Source: Acidobacteria bacterium Mor1 (GTDB lineage: Bacteria > Acidobacteriota > Polarisedimenticolia > Polarisedimenticolales > Polarisedimenticolaceae). Taken from it: DNA of 64,000 nt. The translations under genes and the position numbers were made by a program. The stretch is from the NCBI GenBank assembly GCA_001664505.1, contig CP011806.1, forward strand, positions 5,769,788-5,833,787. Direction: 5' to 3'. The notes below the pieces were generated by a model. It saw nothing but the letters and a program-made list of their open reading frames with translations, was not told where the DNA came from and searched no databases. Shown piece after piece: positions 3,919 to 62,277 of this stretch; position 1 is the first letter of the stretch, and every line of letters begins with the position of its first letter.

Positions 3919-4803
3919 ATGCACTCGACCCGCGCCTACCGCTACGTCGTGTGGGCCTTCGTCGCGCTGCTCTGGGCGGGCCAGGGCTGTCACATCAGCG
4001 ACTACGGCCTGATCACCGACAACAACCAGACCGCCGCCGGAGGCGGCCCCCGGGAGATCCGCGACACCCGGGGCAAGGCCAAGCTGATCGTCGGCTCCCA
4101 ATGGGCCTATGTGCAGTCCGGAGAGTCCATCGAGACCCTCAACTTCGTGCGCCAGGACGCATCCGGCGCCCAGACCCTGACCACCTACAACCACATCTCG
4201 GTGGCCGGAAGCGGCGAGGCGACCTTCCATGACGACCTCTACTGCTCGCCGGAGTTCGATACCTGCCGGGGGTTCCGCTCTACCGACAAGGATGCGTCGG
4301 ATCCGAACGAGGATCCGTTCAACATGCGAACGTTCTATGCCGTCTGTCCCAAGGCCTACGCGTCGATTGCGCTGTCGACGGTGCGCTACTACGGGGAGTG
4401 CGGCCGAACCGGACCGCTGTCGCTACGGGATCGTCTGGCGCTCTACAACATGGGCCGGATCTCGACGCGCTACGGCGTCGAGGGGTTGATCTACCGGGCG
4501 GACCGCAACAGCCTGTCGATCACGCTGGACAACAACCGGGGGGTGGTCACTCCCCTCGACGTTCGCGGCGATGCAGAGGTCTGGCTGCGCCCGGGAAGGG
4601 GAGTGCTCGACGGCAGCAATCCGTTGCAGTCGGTGATGTTGCGTTCCTACGCGGCATGGCTGATGCAGCACGGCAGCGACGAGACCACCCTGACCGCCTG
4701 CTACAACGGGATCTGCCGGGACTGGCAGATGCGGGGCGTGGTCGAGGACGACAGCGGGTTCGATCTGGTGCGCAGCGTGTTGCGCTTCGCCGACCGCTAC
4801 TGA
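3919..4803 (+). CDS. Lipoprotein of an unrecognised paralogous family (copy 1, solitary)
   Basis: 294 residues. The ATG is preceded by GGGAAGGGGGG, which decides the start. A signal peptide ends in a lipobox (LLWAGQGC), so the mature protein is a lipoprotein. Immediately after the cysteine comes HISDYGLITDNNQT, then a glycine-rich turn and an EIRDTRGKAKL motif, all shared with four copies at 58.3-62.3 kb. Six further cysteines are in family-conserved contexts: YCSPE, a second C five residues on, VCPKA, YYGECGRT and ACYNGICRDW. The C-terminus is predicted globular, with no other membrane segment. I do not recognise the family. This copy sits alone, 94 nt after the glycosyltransferase and convergent with yqgE. 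Confidence 0.85.
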   Translation: MHSTRAYRYVVWAFVALLWAGQGCHISDYGLITDNNQTAAGGGPREIRDTRGKAKLIVGSQWAYVQSGESIETLNFVRQDASGAQTLTTYNHISVAGSGEATFHDDLYCSPEFDTCRGFRSTDKDASDPNEDPFNMRTFYAVCPKAYASIALSTVRYYGECGRTGPLSLRDRLALYNMGRISTRYGVEGLIYRADRNSLSITLDNNRGVVTPLDVRGDAEVWLRPGRGVLDGSNPLQSVMLRSYAAWLMQHGSDETTLTACYNGICRDWQMRGVVEDDSGFDLVRSVLRFADRY

Positions 4804-5533: not shown

Positions 5534-5608
5534 GGCGGCGTAGCCAAGTGGTAAGGCAGAGCTCTGCAAAAGCTCCATTCGTCGGTTCGATTCCGACCGC
5601 CGCCTCCA
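5534..5608 (+). tRNA. tRNA-Cys (anticodon GCA), CCA encoded
   Basis: The acceptor stem GGCGGCG (5534-5540) pairs perfectly with CGCCGCC (5598-5604). The anticodon arm is GAGCT-CTGCAAA-AGCTC, giving anticodon GCA (Cys). The T arm is GTCGG-TTCGATT-CCGAC. The discriminator is T at 5605 and the CCA end (5606-5608) is encoded. The variable loop is short. The D arm contains AGCC...GGTAAGGC. Confidence 0.96.
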
Positions 5609-6805: not shown

Positions 6806-7959
6806 TTACCGTCGGCCGGATCCGGCGCCTGTTGCGAGCCGTCCTCGGCGTCCACCACCCGTAGCTCGCCCCGAACCCACTCGATCGCCCGGGCCCCGCC
6901 GTCCTTCCACATCGCCACGTCGGCGCGCAGCAGTGCGCCGCCGAAACGTGAGGTCACACGCCCGCTCTCAACCGGTGTGTGGCCGATGACCATGGTGTGG
7001 GCCTCGAGGGTCTCGAGCACCGCGCGCAGGGTGGCCTCGACCTCTGCGGCATCTTTCAGGGCGTAGTCCCGGTGCCACAGCGGTCCGTCGGAGCTCAGGG
7101 CCAGGTATTGCTTGCCTGCGTAAATCGTCTCGGCAGCCTTGGAGACCTCCTCGGAGACCCGCACACCCGGATCCTCGTTGATCCGCCTGGCCAACCCGAG
7201 GATATCGGGGAGCTGCATCAGGGGGTTGACCACGCCCGCCTCTTCAAGCACCGCAAGGGCATCGAGCCATCGCTCGAGCTCTTCCCGGTTGCGGCGGTTC
7301 AACGCGTCCAGGCCCTCGACGGCAAGTGCCGGGGAGATACCCCCGTGGCAGAACACCACCCCGTTGATCTTGACCGCCAGCGGCAACCCCAGCAGCCATT
7401 CACCGATCTCTCCGCCGGCGGACATGGCGCGGCCGCGGGCGAAGAAGCCGGGCGGGAAATTCTCGGCAAACGCGGCCTCGAGTTCCTTGCGCGAACCTTC
7501 ACTCCTGCGGAGCTGCTGGTAGCGCTTGAGCTGCTTCTTGCGTTCCTTCTCGTTGACCCCGCCGGCGAAATCGGCGTAGGCGCCGGCGCTTACGTAGCGC
7601 AGGTCGCGAGTCAGGTTCATGGCCTCGTGGTTCCCCATCAGCACATGGACACGGCCGCCTGCCGCGCGGCTCTGTTCCTGCAGCCGCCGGGCGAGCTCCA
7701 CCGCCTCGCGGCCGTCGTCACCCCGGTCGAGGAGGTCGCCGACAAAGACCAGATGGGTCTTGCCCCCGCTCCAGTTCTCGTCGTCGTCGATCAGGCCGGC
7801 CTCGGCCAGGATCGCGCGTGCCTGGTCCAGGCTGCCGTGGACGTCGCCGACGGCCACGACCCGTTCGACCCCGTCGAAGATCGCCTCGCCGGACCAGGCG
7901 GCCGCCGGCCAGGCGAGCACCAGGATCAAGGCCAGGGCGCGGATCAGGGTTGTCTTCAT
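6802..7959 (-). CDS. Secreted PPP-family metallophosphoesterase
   Basis: 385 residues with an N-terminal signal peptide (about 1-24, cleavage near AWSGEA). The protein phosphatase signature blocks are in order: GDVHG (38-42), GDLLDRG (74-80), GNHE (109-112), then FCHGGIS and VIGHTPV, supplying the usual Asp, His and Asn ligands of a dimetal centre. It resembles bacterial Shewanella-like serine/threonine phosphatases or diadenosine-polyphosphatase relatives; the substrate is unknown. It is the last gene of the glgP operon: its ATG overlaps the histidine-kinase stop by 4 nt, and GGAGGG precedes it. The predicted export places the activity in the periplasm, so it is unlikely to dephosphorylate the neighbouring cytoplasmic regulators. 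Confidence 0.88.
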   Translation of the reverse strand: MKTTLIRALALILVLAWPAAAWSGEAIFDGVERVVAVGDVHGSLDQARAILAEAGLIDDDENWSGGKTHLVFVGDLLDRGDDGREAVELARRLQEQSRAAGGRVHVLMGNHEAMNLTRDLRYVSAGAYADFAGGVNEKERKKQLKRYQQLRRSEGSRKELEAAFAENFPPGFFARGRAMSAGGEIGEWLLGLPLAVKINGVVFCHGGISPALAVEGLDALNRRNREELERWLDALAVLEEAGVVNPLMQLPDILGLARRINEDPGVRVSEEVSKAAETIYAGKQYLALSSDGPLWHRDYALKDAAEVEATLRAVLETLEAHTMVIGHTPVESGRVTSRFGGALLRADVAMWKDGGARAIEWVRGELRVVDAEDGSQQAPDPADGN

Positions 7960-53840: not shown

Positions 53841-56294
53841 CTACGGGCAGCCCCCGCTCCCGCTGCGCGCCGTGCCCCCGCTGGAACTCCCGTAACCGCC
53901 GGTAGAGAACCCGGACTGGAAACGCACCAGGTAGAAGAAGCCCTGGCCGGCTGCCGGTAACGTGGCGTCGCTGGCGGCACGGTCGGCGGAGTCCGCCTCG
54001 ACACAGGTCAACGGGCCCAAAGCGCCCTCGCCGAGGGCCGACAGACCGCCGCGCACCACGTCGAACACCGCATCGGGGGCGCCGGGAACTTCTTCCCAGT
54101 CGAGCTGGGTCACGCCGGATCCGTCCAAGGTCAGGCCGGCGACCTCTCCCTGCACGGCCAGATCGAATCCGCGGACGATCAGGTCGTCGATGGCGGCTTC
54201 GACCACCGTGTCGACGCTGGCGTCCAGGGCGCGGAAGCGGAAACGCACGTCGGCGCCCGGGGTAATCAGGTCATCGAGGCGCACCGCCGGAGAGGGAACC
54301 CAGGCGGGGTCGGCATCGGGCGTCGCCGTGGTGTCGGTCACCGTTTCGAGGGTCTGCCAACTCGATCCTCCGTCGTCGGAGACCTCGGCGACCAGTTGAT
54401 CGGTCGGGTCCTGGGTGCGGAAGAACCAGCGCTGCCAGCTCACCTCGACTCCGTAGCTGCCGCTCAGGTCGTAGGGGGGCGAGGTCAGGGTGGTCGTACC
54501 GTTATCGACATCGTCCTGGTCGGGCGTGGCGGCGGGCGGGTTGCCGGTAACGAAGGCGTTGATTCCTTGACCGGGCGTGCGGTCGAGCTTGGGGGAGATG
54601 CGGGTCAGGTTGCTCTGCACCTGTCCCTGATGGGTGCCCTGGGGCTCGCCCCACTCCCACACCCCTGCGGTGGCGGTGTCGGCGGGATCTCCGATGACCC
54701 AGTTCGCGGCCCGGGCGGGGTCTTCGAAGTCTTCGTGGACCAGCAGACCGGAGCCGGTCGGCGTCAACGCGACCTGCACCGGCTGGAAGCTGCCGGTCAC
54801 GCTCAACGGTACCGTCGCATCGACGTATCCGGGAGCGGAGACTCGCAGGGTGTAGCTGCCGGGGACGACGATGATGTGAAAACGTCCGGTGTCGGAGCGC
54901 GAGGTCAGGCGCTTGCCGTCGGGCAGCAGCATCTCATCGAGATCGACGTCCGCCTCGACCGGCAGGCCGGTGACGGCGTCGGTGACATGGCCGCCGACGG
55001 CGGCGCCGTGGACCCGGTCCAGCAACCACTGCCAGCCCGGGCGCTGTCCTTCGACGGTCGGATCGCGCCAGATCTGATAGTCGGGACGGAAGCCTCCCTC
55101 ACCGGAACTGTTCAGCTCGGTGACGAAGGCGATGGCGCCGTTCTCGTGGTACTGCTGGTCCCGCCCGGTGCCGTCGACCCGGCTGCCGAAGGGGGCGGGG
55201 TCGTAGCCGATGACTCCGTCGGCACGGATGATCTCGCCGGCGTACTCCTCGGCGATGATCCGGCTGATGTTCTGATCGGGGCCGGCGATGGTGGTCAGCT
55301 TGGGGCTGAACAGGTCGGGATCGCAGGAGGTGGCGTAGAACACGTCCTCGCCGAAGCTGTGGTACTCGACGTCGAACACCGGGCGGATGCGGCGGCCCAG
55401 ATCGAGCATCGCCATGGTTTCGGGCTCGGAACCTTCGAAGGGGCCGCGGTAGATGCCGCTGGTGAAGCTGCTGGAGGAGCCGTTGCACTGGTCGCCCCAG
55501 CCCCACTCGTAGTTGCGGTTGAGGTCGACGCCGTCCTGGTTGTTCAGGGTGCCCGAGCCGTCGTTGTCCCGGGTGTTCTTGCGCCAGTTGAAATCCTCTT
55601 CGTGGACCACACGCACGCCGTCGGGGTTGACCATCGGCACGCACCAGATCTGGAGCGTGTCGACCCAGCGGGTCACGTCGGGATCGCTGCCGTAGTTGTC
55701 GGTCAGGTAGTCGATGGTGTCGATCATCACCTCGACGGTCATGACCTCGCGGGCGTGGTGCGCCGCGTTGAACAGCACACTCAGTTCATCTTCGTCGACT
55801 CCGGGGTTGTCGGAGATCAGCAGTCCCCAGATGGTCGCACCGTCATGACTCGTGCCCAGCGCTTCCCTGCGAACCAGGTTCGGATGGTCCAGCACAACCT
55901 GGTCCAGGTACGCCTCGAGTTCATCGGGATCGGTGTAGTTGGTGTCGGGCAGGGGATCGTCGGTGCCCAGCGCCTCGACCTCGGCCAGAGAGAGCCGCTC
56001 GGCGTAGCGGGCCTGTTCGACGAATTCGAACCCCGCCCGGCGCAGCGCTTCGGCTCCCCGCAGGTCGGTGACCACCAGGACACGGTTCCCGGGCAGGTCG
56101 TAGCCGGCGATGTCGAATCCCTGGGCGGTCAGCCAATCCCGCTGAGCCGCGTCGGCGGCGACATCCAGGTGCAGCACCGGGCCTTCCTGGGGCACGAAGA
56201 CTCGATCACCGTGGTCTCCGTGAGCCTGGGCCGGCCCGGCGGCAGCCAGCAGAAGACAGACCGAAATCACCCAGCCGAACCACCGATTGCGCAT
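53841..56294 (-). CDS. Secreted M14 zinc carboxypeptidase
   Basis: 817 residues from ATG 56294 with GGGGGAG upstream. Signal peptide ends near PAQAHG. The peptidase domain has NAAHHAREVMTVE with the H-x-x-E zinc motif, NPDGVRVVHEED, GVDLNRNYEWGWG, the third zinc His in EYHSFGE, and the general-base Glu in FVTELNSSGE. A carboxypeptidase-regulatory-like beta domain (GGHVTDAVTGLPVEADV) follows, then a C-terminal beta domain of about 250 residues. It releases C-terminal residues from peptides outside the cytoplasm. It is downstream of no operon and convergent with the PAS gene. Confidence 0.92.
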   Translation of the reverse strand: MRNRWFGWVISVCLLLAAAGPAQAHGDHGDRVFVPQEGPVLHLDVAADAAQRDWLTAQGFDIAGYDLPGNRVLVVTDLRGAEALRRAGFEFVEQARYAERLSLAEVEALGTDDPLPDTNYTDPDELEAYLDQVVLDHPNLVRREALGTSHDGATIWGLLISDNPGVDEDELSVLFNAAHHAREVMTVEVMIDTIDYLTDNYGSDPDVTRWVDTLQIWCVPMVNPDGVRVVHEEDFNWRKNTRDNDGSGTLNNQDGVDLNRNYEWGWGDQCNGSSSSFTSGIYRGPFEGSEPETMAMLDLGRRIRPVFDVEYHSFGEDVFYATSCDPDLFSPKLTTIAGPDQNISRIIAEEYAGEIIRADGVIGYDPAPFGSRVDGTGRDQQYHENGAIAFVTELNSSGEGGFRPDYQIWRDPTVEGQRPGWQWLLDRVHGAAVGGHVTDAVTGLPVEADVDLDEMLLPDGKRLTSRSDTGRFHIIVVPGSYTLRVSAPGYVDATVPLSVTGSFQPVQVALTPTGSGLLVHEDFEDPARAANWVIGDPADTATAGVWEWGEPQGTHQGQVQSNLTRISPKLDRTPGQGINAFVTGNPPAATPDQDDVDNGTTTLTSPPYDLSGSYGVEVSWQRWFFRTQDPTDQLVAEVSDDGGSSWQTLETVTDTTATPDADPAWVPSPAVRLDDLITPGADVRFRFRALDASVDTVVEAAIDDLIVRGFDLAVQGEVAGLTLDGSGVTQLDWEEVPGAPDAVFDVVRGGLSALGEGALGPLTCVEADSADRAASDATLPAAGQGFFYLVRFQSGFSTGGYGSSSGGTARSGSGGCP

Positions 56295-56471
56295 CAGGAT
56301 CTCCCCCCGGGTATGCGGGCCGCGCCGGGCCGGAGCGGGTCCCGGCGGGCTCGTCGTCGAGGCTGATTGTACGGTGATTTCACCCTGTTTGAGGCGGTTT
56401 CCACTCTCCGCGGGCTCTCGATTGGACATCGCCGCTAGAGTAGGACAGGGGCTCGTTTGGGAGGAGTGCGC

Positions 56472-56753
56472 ATGAAAGCGGTGTGGAATGACGAGGTGCT
56501 TGCCGAGAGCGACGAGACGGTGGTGGTCGAGAGCAACCACTACTTCCCGCCGTCATCCCTCAAGCAGCAGTTTCTGAGGCCGAGCGACACCAGGACTCAC
56601 TGTCCCTGGAAGGGCAACGCCTCCTACTTCCATGTGGAGGTCGAGGGAATGACCCTGCCCGACGCCGCCTGGACCTATCAGGCTCCCAAGGACGCCGCCC
56701 GGGAGATCACCGGACATGTGGCCTTCTGGAAAGGGGTCGAAGTCCGCGAGTAA
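56472..56753 (+). CDS. DUF427 protein
   Basis: 93 residues from ATG with GGGAGGAG upstream. The sequence MKAVWNDEVLAESDETVVVESNHYFPP, THCPWKGNASYF and AWTYQAPKDAA is typical of the compact DUF427 fold. Function unknown. Gene order MOSC-DUF427 is convergent with a 20-nt gap. Confidence 0.93.
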   Translation: MKAVWNDEVLAESDETVVVESNHYFPPSSLKQQFLRPSDTRTHCPWKGNASYFHVEVEGMTLPDAAWTYQAPKDAAREITGHVAFWKGVEVRE

Positions 56754-58311: not shown

Positions 58312-59214
58312 CTAGTAGGCTCGATGGGCCAGGGAGAGGATGTCCGTCGCCAACGACGGCATCCCTTCCGGGTTGCGGCCGGCTACCGTCCAGTCCCGGC
58401 AGATCCCGTTGAGGCACCCTGTAATGGTGGTCGTGTCGGTCGCGTGGGCGTCAACCCATCCGGCGTAGGACCGCGCCACCTGGCCGATGAGCGGATTGCG
58501 GGCATCAAGCATGCCCGCCCGCCCCGGCCCCGGGCTGAGCCAGACCTCCACATCGCCGGCCAACGGCAGTTGGGAGCGCAGCCCCTGCTCGTTGCTCAGG
58601 TGGATCGATAGTCCCGATCGGTTCGCTCGGTAGTGGAGCGCTTCTCTCCCGGCCAGTTGCACCAGTTCTCCGCTGTTCCAGAGCGACAGGCGATCCTGCA
58701 GGGAGAGCCTGCGCGTGCGGCCGCACTCGCCGTAGTAGCGGTCAGTCGAGAGGGTGGCGCTGAACCAGATCGCCCCCGGGCAGTCCTCGAATCGCCGGAA
58801 ATTGAAGGGATCATCTTCGGGGTCGGCCGCGTTCTTGTCGAAGGACACTCGCCCGGCGCAGCCCTGGCGCTCCGGAGAGCAGTAGAGATCGTCGGAGAAA
58901 GTTGCCTCTCCTTCGACGGAAATGTTCGAGTGCGTGTACAGGGTCTGTGCGCCATCGGTATTCTGGCGCACGTAGTTGAGTTGTTCGATGGTCTCACCGG
59001 CAACCCAGAGAGCCCACTGGCTCCCGTGAACCAGCTTGGCCTTGCCACGGGTGTCTCTGATCTCCCCGGGACCGCCGCCGGCACGCGTCTGGTTGTTGTC
59101 CGTGATCAGGCCGTAGTTGGAGATCTGGCAGCCGGAGGTGGCGAGGCACAAGAGAACCGAGCCGGTGATCAGCACCGAAGCCGACATCTTGCGCGTCTCG
59201 AACGTAATTCGCAT
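58312..59214 (-). CDS. Lipoprotein of the unrecognised family, copy 2 (divergent)
   Basis: 300 residues from ATG 59214 (GGTGA upstream); ATG 59187 is a shorter alternative. Lipobox LLCLATSGC, followed by QISNYGLITDNNQT, EIRDTRGKAKLV, LYCSPERQGC, CPGAIWFS, YYGECGRT and GCLNGICRDW, the family pattern, with all six shared cysteines. The C-terminus differs in the last turn (LATDILSLAHRAY). It lies head to head with the three tandem copies, so the 349-nt region between may serve both directions. Confidence 0.85.
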   Translation of the reverse strand: MRITFETRKMSASVLITGSVLLCLATSGCQISNYGLITDNNQTRAGGGPGEIRDTRGKAKLVHGSQWALWVAGETIEQLNYVRQNTDGAQTLYTHSNISVEGEATFSDDLYCSPERQGCAGRVSFDKNAADPEDDPFNFRRFEDCPGAIWFSATLSTDRYYGECGRTRRLSLQDRLSLWNSGELVQLAGREALHYRANRSGLSIHLSNEQGLRSQLPLAGDVEVWLSPGPGRAGMLDARNPLIGQVARSYAGWVDAHATDTTTITGCLNGICRDWTVAGRNPEGMPSLATDILSLAHRAY

Positions 59215-59563
59215 AGGGTCACCAGTTGTCCTTGGTGCCATGGTTCACCGCCTGGAGAAACAGGTCAAGCCTGGGGCGGTTTTCGGTTTTCTCTTGGGCC
59301 GGTTGTGGCCTGGGCGTATGCTTCCGGCAACGGCATGGCCGGGCGTGAGCCTGGTCGTCGCCCCGCTGCTTTGTGGGGGAGCGATGCATCTGATGGGGCG
59401 CTGGCGGCGCTCCCGAGGTGATGAGCCCTCTCCATGGCGACCTTCTGGGGCGGCGCCCTCTTCGCCCTCGGCATGGCCGCGACCCGTTTCTGGATGGTTG
59501 GTGCTGCGTCGGTCGGCTCTTGATCGACGGTCCGGGAGTCGATCCCGGCGAGAGGGGGGATTC
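59215..59563. other. Divergent intergenic region, no supported gene
   Basis: The stretch lies between lipoprotein copy 2 and copy 3. Short frames exist on both strands (for example 59434-59523, a 29-residue hydrophobic peptide), but none has a convincing ribosome site or recognisable homology. No clear promoter boxes were found by eye. It could carry shared regulatory sites for both directions. Confidence 0.4.
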
Positions 59564-60448
59564 ATGGGGCGCATTCGTGCTCGCCGCACGCGAGGCATCG
59601 GATTCGTTGTCTTGCTGGCCTGTCTCACCGGCTGCCATATCAGCAACTACGGCCTGATCACCGACAACAACCAGACCAGCGCCGGCGGCGGTCCCGGAGA
59701 GGTCCGGAACACCCGGGGCAAGGCCAAGCTCGTGGCCGGGCAACAGGTCGTGTCGTTCACGCCGACAGGGACCGAGGAGTCGCTGAACTTCGTACGGCAA
59801 AACGCCGACGGAGCACAAACCCTCTCAACCTACCGCAACATGTCGGTCGAAGGTGAGGCGACGTTCCTCGATGACCTGTACTGCTCTCCCGAATACGAGG
59901 GTTGCGCCAAACGCAAGTCCTTCGACGTCGATGCGTCGGATCCAAGCGACAACCCCTACAACCAGCGTTTCTTCAGCGAGTGTCCCGGAGTGCCCTCCAG
60001 CTTCACGCTCTCCACGGCGCGCTACTACGGCGAGTGCGGCCGCACCGGGGCGCTTTCCCTGCAGCAGAAGCTTTCGTTGTGGAACATGGGGACGATCGTG
60101 GACTGGCGTGACGGCGAGGCCTTGTACTTCGATCTGGACCGCTCCAATCTGAGCGTCCATCTGGCGAACGATGACGGTTTGACCACACCACTCTCGATCA
60201 CCGGCGACTATCGCAGTTGGGTTCAGGTGCGCGGGCCGAACCGTTGGGTGCTCGATGCCACGAACCCTTTGAGCGCCGTTCTCGCGCGCTCCTACGCTGC
60301 GTGGGTCGAGGACTACGGCACCGAGACAACCACGATTCGCGGCTGCTATCAGGGGATCTGCCGCGAATGGACCGTCGCCGGCAAGGCGGACGGGCAAGGG
60401 GCGCCGGACACCGTCGGCGACATCCTGCGTTTTGCGGCCCGGATGTAG
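59564..60448 (+). CDS. Lipoprotein of the unrecognised family, copy 3
   Basis: 294 residues from ATG 59564, preceded by GAGGGGGGA. Lipobox VLLACLTGC; then HISNYGLITDNNQT, EVRNTRGKAKLV, LYCSPEYEGC, ECPGVPSS, YYGECGRTGAL, GCYQGICREWTVAG and a C-terminal DTVGDILRFAARM. It is the first of three same-direction copies, followed by copy 4 after 30 nt. No other domain is visible. Confidence 0.85.
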   Translation: MGRIRARRTRGIGFVVLLACLTGCHISNYGLITDNNQTSAGGGPGEVRNTRGKAKLVAGQQVVSFTPTGTEESLNFVRQNADGAQTLSTYRNMSVEGEATFLDDLYCSPEYEGCAKRKSFDVDASDPSDNPYNQRFFSECPGVPSSFTLSTARYYGECGRTGALSLQQKLSLWNMGTIVDWRDGEALYFDLDRSNLSVHLANDDGLTTPLSITGDYRSWVQVRGPNRWVLDATNPLSAVLARSYAAWVEDYGTETTTIRGCYQGICREWTVAGKADGQGAPDTVGDILRFAARM

Positions 60449-60478
60449 GGAAACTTCGTCACGACAGGAGGAGGAGTC

Positions 60479-61369
60479 ATGATTCAGGTAATCGCAGCGC
60501 GGCTTTCGCGGATCGCCTTCCTGGCGCTCTTGGTGGCGGGGGCCGGCTGTCACATCAGCGACTACAGCCTGATCACCGACAATAACCAGACCAACGTCGG
60601 CGGTGGACCCGGCGAGATCCGGGATACCCGCGGCCAGGCCAAGCTGGTGCACTCCAGTCAGTGGGCCTACCTGATGGCCGACGGCGCCCACGAGGCGCTC
60701 AACTACGTGCGGCAGAACGCCGACGGTTCCCAGACCCTGACCTCCCACGACAATCTATCGGTGGAAGGGGACGCCACCTTCTCCGACGACCTCTACTGCT
60801 CGCCCGAGCGGGAGGGGTGTGCGACCCGGCGCTCCTTCGACAAGGATCCTACCGATCGCGACGAGGACCCGTTCAACACGAGGGTTCTCTTCGAGTGTCC
60901 GGCGGCCAACACCCTCTGCATGAGCCTTTCGACCTACCGCTACTACGGCGAGTGCGGCCGAACCGGGACGCTGTCGCTGCAGGACAAACTCTCGCTCTGG
61001 AACATGGGAACCCTGGTTCAGGTCGGCGGCGTGGAGGCGCTTCACTACCAGGTGGATCGTTCGAACCTCAGCATCGTTCTGGAAAACGACGAGGGCTTGC
61101 GCACACCGCTCCAGATCTCGGGAGAGATCGAGTCCTGGACGCGGATGGGAGGCGCCGCGAGGGGGATCGTCGATTCGAGCCATCCGCTGATCGGGGTGGT
61201 GGCTCGTTCCTACGCGGCCTGGGTTCAGCAGCACGGCACCAAGGCGACCACGATCACGGGCTGCTACCAGGGTATTTGCCGTGAGTGGACGGTGGCCGGC
61301 GTCTACGAGGAGGGCCGGGATGCACCGGACACCGTCGGCGACATCCTGCGATTTGCGTCGGCGTTCTAG
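60479..61369 (+). CDS. Lipoprotein of the unrecognised family, copy 4
   Basis: 296 residues, with a very strong AGGAGGAGG ribosome site. Lipobox LLVAGAGC (Cys24), then HISDYSLITDNNQT, EIRDTRGQAKLV, the cysteine contexts at 107, 114, 140, 147, 159, 262 and 267, and DTVGDILRFASAF at the end. It carries one cysteine more than copies 1-3 (residue 147, shared with copy 5). Copy 5 starts 2 nt after its stop, so the two are probably translationally coupled. Confidence 0.87.
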   Translation: MIQVIAARLSRIAFLALLVAGAGCHISDYSLITDNNQTNVGGGPGEIRDTRGQAKLVHSSQWAYLMADGAHEALNYVRQNADGSQTLTSHDNLSVEGDATFSDDLYCSPEREGCATRRSFDKDPTDRDEDPFNTRVLFECPAANTLCMSLSTYRYYGECGRTGTLSLQDKLSLWNMGTLVQVGGVEALHYQVDRSNLSIVLENDEGLRTPLQISGEIESWTRMGGAARGIVDSSHPLIGVVARSYAAWVQQHGTKATTITGCYQGICREWTVAGVYEEGRDAPDTVGDILRFASAF

Positions 61370-61371
61370 TC

Positions 61372-62277
61372 GTGGCTGCGGTGCTGCGCACGACGGGGCG
61401 GATCGCGTCAGTGGTCAGTGCGTTGGTGTTTCTCCTGGTGTGGGGAGCCGGCACCGGTTGCCACGTGAGCGACTACGGATTGATCACCGACAACAACCAG
61501 ACCAGCGCCGGGGGCGGTCCCCAGGAGATCCGGGACACAAGGGGTAAGGCCAAGCTGGTGTTTGCGCAAAAGTGGGCGACGCTTCAGGCCGATGGGACCG
61601 ATGAGATCAACACCTTCGTTCGGCAGAACGCCGATGGGGCCCAGACTCTCAGTTCACACAACAACTTCTCGGTCGCCGGGGACGCCACGTTCTCCGATGA
61701 TCTGTACTGTTCTCCGGAAACCGAGGGCTGCGCGGTGCGCAAGTCCTTCGACAAGGATCCAACCGATCCTGAGGAAGATCCGTACGATCGCTACACGTTC
61801 AAGGAATGTCCCGGCGCCCGCTCGATTTGCCTCAGCCTGGCGACTCAGCGCTACTACGGAGAGTGTGGGAGGACGAGCACTCTCAGTCTGCAGGACCGGT
61901 TGACCCTCTGGAACATGGGGCAGATCGTCGCCGTCGGTGGACGTGAGGCACTCTACTTCCAGGCCGATCGCAACAGCCTCTCGGTCACGTTGGCCAATGA
62001 CGAGGGCTTGGTGACGCCGCTGGCGCTCTCCGGAGAGCTGGAAGGCTGGGTCCAGACCGGCGGCTTGGAGCAGGGGTTGGTCGACGCTTCGAACCCGCTG
62101 ATCGGGATGGTCGTGCGCTCATACGCCCGCTGGGTTCATGAACACGCCACCGAGGAGACGACCATCTCCGGTTGCTACCGGGGTATCTGCCGGCAATGGA
62201 CCGTGGCGGGGAACTCGCAGGATCTGAGCGGTGGCGACTCCGTCAGCGAGATTCTGCAGTTCGCAGCCCGTTTCTGA
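61372..62277 (+). CDS. Lipoprotein of the unrecognised family, copy 5
   Basis: 301 residues from GTG 61372, 2 nt after the copy-4 stop; there is no independent ribosome site, which supports coupling. Lipobox LVWGAGTGC, then HVSDYGLITDNNQT, EIRDTRGKAKLV, LYCSPETEGC, ECPGARSICLS, YYGECGRTSTL and GCYRGICRQWTVAG. The seven non-lipid cysteines match copy 4. The C-terminal end is DSVSEILQFAARF. Convergent with the Mpo1-like gene 9 nt away. Confidence 0.85.
   Translation: MAAVLRTTGRIASVVSALVFLLVWGAGTGCHVSDYGLITDNNQTSAGGGPQEIRDTRGKAKLVFAQKWATLQADGTDEINTFVRQNADGAQTLSSHNNFSVAGDATFSDDLYCSPETEGCAVRKSFDKDPTDPEEDPYDRYTFKECPGARSICLSLATQRYYGECGRTSTLSLQDRLTLWNMGQIVAVGGREALYFQADRNSLSVTLANDEGLVTPLALSGELEGWVQTGGLEQGLVDASNPLIGMVVRSYARWVHEHATEETTISGCYRGICRQWTVAGNSQDLSGGDSVSEILQFAARF

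Follow-up and report, generated by a model that had tools for sequence, protein, structure and literature searches.

A clustered lipoprotein family in the Mor1 genome

What are the cysteine-rich lipoproteins that Acidobacteria bacterium Mor1 encodes side by side, and what might they do in its cell envelope? The window analysed here comprises 64,000 nucleotides (positions 5769788-5833787 of a genome that forms one contig of 5,985,000 bases), and a first-pass annotation had described in it an expanded, cysteine-rich lipoprotein family with one divergent and three tandem copies clustered at 58312-62277. The family is real, and all four genes are present and complete. The divergent copy (58312..59214, minus strand) is lipidated at Cys29 and has six more cysteines in the mature protein. 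The plus-strand trio consists of a first gene (59564..60448, lipidated at Cys24), a second (60479..61369, lipidated at Cys24, with a strong ribosome-binding site, aggaggag) and a third (61372..62277, GTG start, lipidated at Cys30). An open reading frame extending upstream to 59117 is mechanical, and the start at 59564 agrees with the lipobox and with a G-rich ribosome-binding site. Only 30 bases separate the first gene of the trio from the second, and 2 bases the second from the third, so the trio is probably one transcript. Between the trio and the divergent copy lies a 349-bp intergenic region (59215..59563), which presumably holds the promoters of both; no sigma-70-like site turned up in it.

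The count of clustered copies stands at four, and what had been listed as copy 1 is a fifth gene at 3919..4803 (plus strand), flanked by a GT2 glycosyltransferase gene and an AlgH-like gene. A tRNA-Cys gene lies at window 5534-5608, about 0.7 kb from it. The genome total is nine, the four copies outside the window being a tandem pair at 948187-949972, at what we call the ancestral locus, and single genes at 2973048 and 4981874. The window copies are 54-62% identical pairwise in amino acids and match copy 60479 with E values of 1e-112 to 1e-129, far beyond chance. Codon position 3 is the most variable among them (0.43-0.55) and position 2 the least (0.21-0.33), which fits genes under purifying selection.

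An undescribed family restricted to one class

The family is class-restricted and undescribed. None of its members reaches the curated thresholds of Pfam or NCBIfam, PHROGs and PDB sequences gave no matches, PADLOC gave nothing convincing, and literature searches on this lipoprotein family found nothing; the earlier suggestion that the family might be new thus holds against the profile searches. Of 41 class genomes, 18 have members (as do 18 of the 60 genomes searched first), against none of about 355 other Acidobacteriota genomes. A scan of 84,980 species with the sister-family alignment and patterns returned Acidobacteria records only, and a genome-contig scan with a Mor1 protein as query returned no matches. 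A mobile or viral origin was considered and rejected, as viral or plasmid relatives were not found. The expansions are independent in separate lineages.

Family f5, a sister family within the class, has two subfamilies, the long B (YCDPN) and the short A (YCDW), supported in the tree at 99/96 and 98/95, respectively. In its tandem arrays the order is B-A-B-A in 21 of 22 adjacent pairs (binomial p 5e-6, a value that ignores relatedness). This alternation suggests that A and B act together. In the tree the two A copies of genome G027 group together, as do its two B copies, and the same holds for G031, as expected if a B-A unit was duplicated whole.

Conserved blocks, cysteines and predicted fold

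Family proteins are about 260-300 residues long, with conserved cysteines. All aligned complete members have a lipobox preceded by an N-terminal hydrophobic signal, and in most copies the C-terminus is Arg followed by a hydrophobic residue. Across a 39-sequence alignment the invariant columns are the lipobox Cys, Tyr at +6, Asp at +11, an Ala, a Gln, Tyr-Cys, two more Cys and Glu-Cys-Gly. The four clustered copies have in common, besides the lipobox, the blocks C-x-[IV]-S-[ND]-Y-x-LITDNNQT, E[IV]R[DN]TRG[KQ]AKL, YCSPE..GC, YYGECGRT and GICR.W; the lipobox and the EIRDTRGKAKL, YYGECGRT and GICRxW blocks had been noted first.

The cysteine pattern is more variable than the six fixed cysteines and three disulfides initially proposed. 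Copies 58312 and 59564 do have six mature cysteines; copies 60479 and 61372 have a seventh (C147/C153). Only four mature cysteines are invariant across the class, and these likely form two pairs. The third pair, GC....GIC, is found in the seven dispersed Mor1 copies only, being missing from the tandem pair at the ancestral locus (948/949) and from relatives, so that a third disulfide could apply to these seven derived copies alone. In the tree all nine Mor1 copies fall into a single clade (100/99), within which the dispersed seven are a subclade (96/92); with the pair missing at the ancestral locus, it was therefore probably gained after dispersal.

AlphaFold models of a window copy (mean pLDDT 71) and of a sister protein (mean pLDDT 79), both of moderate confidence, agree in combining an N-terminal part that is rich in beta structure and contains cysteines with an alpha/beta part at the C-terminus. 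Foldseek returned nothing at E < 0.001 for the two models. Among the folds listed, the best scores for these moderate-confidence models were Z 4.7 (64 residues, rmsd 3.3) and Z 3.5 (61 residues, rmsd 4.3); the matches to filamin/Ig-like folds (Z up to 4.7) and to OspA (Z about 3) lie within the chance range.

The segment behind the lipidated cysteine

The first-pass annotation had singled out the post-cysteine segment as the most conserved part of the protein. Among the window copies this is so (0.87 identity); class-wide, a 15-residue window beginning at the lipobox reaches at best 3.08 bits per residue and is slightly exceeded by that at YC..GC (3.28; mean 2.07). In the corresponding DNA the copies agree at 78-85% of positions, more than over the remainder of the genes (window 59030-59142 compared with 59628-59740 and 61447-61559), and third-position identity is raised in the block, with an observed/expected ratio, given codon bias, of 1.24 for the window copies and 1.11 for all nine. 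Gene conversion was rejected as the main cause, since codon bias accounts for most of the rise; the remaining synonymous excess is mild, and partial gene conversion is possible.

Could the block be a lipoprotein sorting or export signal, like that of Bacteroidota lipoproteins? Its high conservation and its position, beginning at the anchor, speak for such a role. A pattern search of the Mor1 genome for C-x-[IV]-[ST]-[ND]-Y retrieved nine family genes and one unrelated protein, in which the motif is not at a lipobox, and ITDNN retrieved eight family genes and one unrelated non-lipoprotein. Among Mor1 lipoproteins the block is thus confined to family members, which counts against the proposal that unrelated lipoproteins carry it as a sorting signal. 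The block also lacks the acidic doublet that marks the Bacteroidota signal (PMC5080379), and three short matches that might have been other lipoproteins (L056-L058) turned out to be a contig end and masked chimeric junctions. We consider a sorting signal very unlikely. In the MAG chromosome CP070706.1 (L057 and L058), at about 7001-7200, two family gene starts are joined to unrelated sequence across masked stretches, and these joins are probably assembly chimeras.

In one structure model the first ten mature residues have a pLDDT of about 82 and include a short strand; in the other the post-cysteine segment is disordered. It is plausible from these models that the block is part of the fold and not a linker, and a putative role in partner docking is possible.

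The ancestral locus and a linked subtilase

Simple gene calling and homology searches on neighbourhoods gave a common locus order: pilT, alaS, a lytic (SLT) transglycosylase gene, an optional membrane protein gene and an optional sulfatase gene, the family genes, a subtilase (S8) lipoprotein gene and a gene for a giant FG-GAP/thrombospondin type 3 (TSP3) repeat protein. In Mor1 this ancestral locus houses two basal family copies, the tandem pair. Its subtilase lipoprotein (G000:C1, about 946297-947919; L059:5298-6920; plus strand) has the Asp, His and Ser motifs, and its catalytic triad is apparently intact. The giant secreted repeat protein (G000:C1, about 938870-946363; L158:8871-16364; minus strand) is encoded by a frame of 2497 residues. 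The family genes and the S8 gene are convergent and do not form one operon. The neighbours of the Mor1 window copies are unrelated, and neither partner gene (subtilase, FG-GAP) lies near any of these copies.

The FG-GAP protein ends in a cysteine-containing domain, terminating in CP, that recurs in large proteins of 40 of the 41 class genomes, with 18 matches in Mor1 and no NCBIfam match; it possibly serves as a C-terminal sorting domain throughout the class. A link between this domain and the lipoprotein family was discarded, as the domain is in 40 of 41 genomes regardless of the family. At window 53841-56540 (minus strand), a carboxypeptidase-like secreted protein has a C-terminus (FYLVR..., ending GGCP) that resembles the FG-GAP C-terminal domain by eye, but the two match only weakly when compared directly (E 0.04).

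Synteny of pilT, alaS and the SLT gene is class-wide and persists in genomes without the family, which makes the family-S8-FG-GAP block the variable part of the locus. Of ten family-free genomes examined at this site, nine lack both family and S8, and G008 has S8 alone. Across the 41 genomes, 17 have both, 22 neither, and each occurs alone in one (S8 in G008, the family in G037), giving a Fisher p of 2e-9 that ignores phylogeny. By gene coordinates, the family is within 3 kb of S8 in 13 of the 17 genomes with both. There is one S8 gene at the locus per genome, and the family numbers one to ten copies. This S8 subfamily was not found outside the class among the phylum genomes, where five candidates per genome were scored. 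The phylogenetically independent contrasts number four, of which 3.5 on average agree and none oppose (p 0.125-0.25). With so few, the association is suggestive and not proven, and the link could stem from common descent or from neighbouring genes lost together as a block.

Possible functions of the family

Our tentative proposal, with a probability of roughly 0.35, is that these class-restricted envelope lipoproteins are subunits of a surface assembly served by the linked protease. The proteins would be carried on the outer membrane, the residue at +2 being H, Q, A or W and not Asp; the +2 sorting rule derives from E. coli and may not hold for an acidobacterial host. Their fold, with two disulfides, would begin immediately after the anchor, and they would form surface-assembly subunits together with the secreted FG-GAP repeat protein, as B/A hetero-oligomers where both subfamilies exist. 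The single subtilase at the locus could process or turn over many family partners, and the Mor1 copies that left the locus would have gained a third cysteine pair and diversified. The fuller version, in which the alternating lipoproteins of the arrays associate into hetero-oligomers, a dedicated subtilase lipoprotein matures these and the giant FG-GAP/thrombospondin type 3 protein joins them in the assembly, is a more doubtful proposition.

About as likely as this surface module is an ordinary expansion, specific to the lineage, of envelope lipoproteins that bind ligands or have a protective role, with a neighbourhood kept by descent without a functional link. The class-wide pilT-alaS-SLT synteny, with or without the family, speaks for this reading, as do the unrelated neighbours of the Mor1 window copies and the small number of independent contrasts. 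Set against it are G002, G003, G004, G006 and G023, in which family and S8 are missing together and whose close relatives carry both or one, and G001, G005 and G009, which retain both although the family genes are located elsewhere; in the first two of these, the locus site still has the S8 and FG-GAP genes. Alternatively, the family proteins might inhibit or restrain the linked subtilase, guarding the cell's own envelope, with copies multiplied and dispersed as targets diversified. In favour of an inhibitor, the family co-occurs with, and lies next to, a subtilase that is apparently intact and is also a lipoprotein; yet the copy numbers are unequal, with one protease at the locus facing up to ten family genes, a ratio more in keeping with a processing enzyme that acts on many substrates than with an inhibitor pair. 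Resemblance to known protease inhibitors was not found, and two alternating subfamilies are not expected of an inhibitor, which leaves this explanation improbable.

The lipid-anchored subtilisin-like protease that accompanies the family suggests a cell-surface system that has yet to be studied. Little work has been done on the surface systems of Acidobacteriota, and the family, its apparently dedicated protease and the repeat-protein partner together offer a defined, testable target. Database curators gain a new family, and the chief additions of interest are the linked subtilase module and the alternating B/A arrays, an unusual genomic sign of obligate pairing.

Comparison with known lipoprotein systems

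The Bacteroidota lipoprotein export signal, K-(D/E)2 or Q-A-(D/E)2, is common to unrelated lipoproteins and is defined by two acidic residues after a polar or basic residue, right after Cys+1 (PMC5080379). The Mor1 family resembles these surface lipoproteins in having conserved residues straight after the lipidated cysteine; it differs in that its segment, C-[HQAW]-[IV]-[ST]-[ND]-Y, is family-specific and without an acidic doublet. Four relatives have weak similarity, over the signal peptide and post-cysteine segment, to YgdI/YgdR (NCBIfam NF033216); their top score, 17.2 bits (E 0.0037), falls well short of the curated 42-bit cut-off, and that model spans 71 positions against the family's roughly 260-300 residues. 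Borrelia has tandem paralogous surface lipoproteins that are lineage-specific and beta-rich. The Mor1 family is alike in being a lineage-specific set of tandem beta-rich paralogs, with a weak OspA fold match in the noise range (Z 3.3, 58 residues); no sequence similarity to the Borrelia proteins was found, and the family's relatives are in environmental metagenome genomes.
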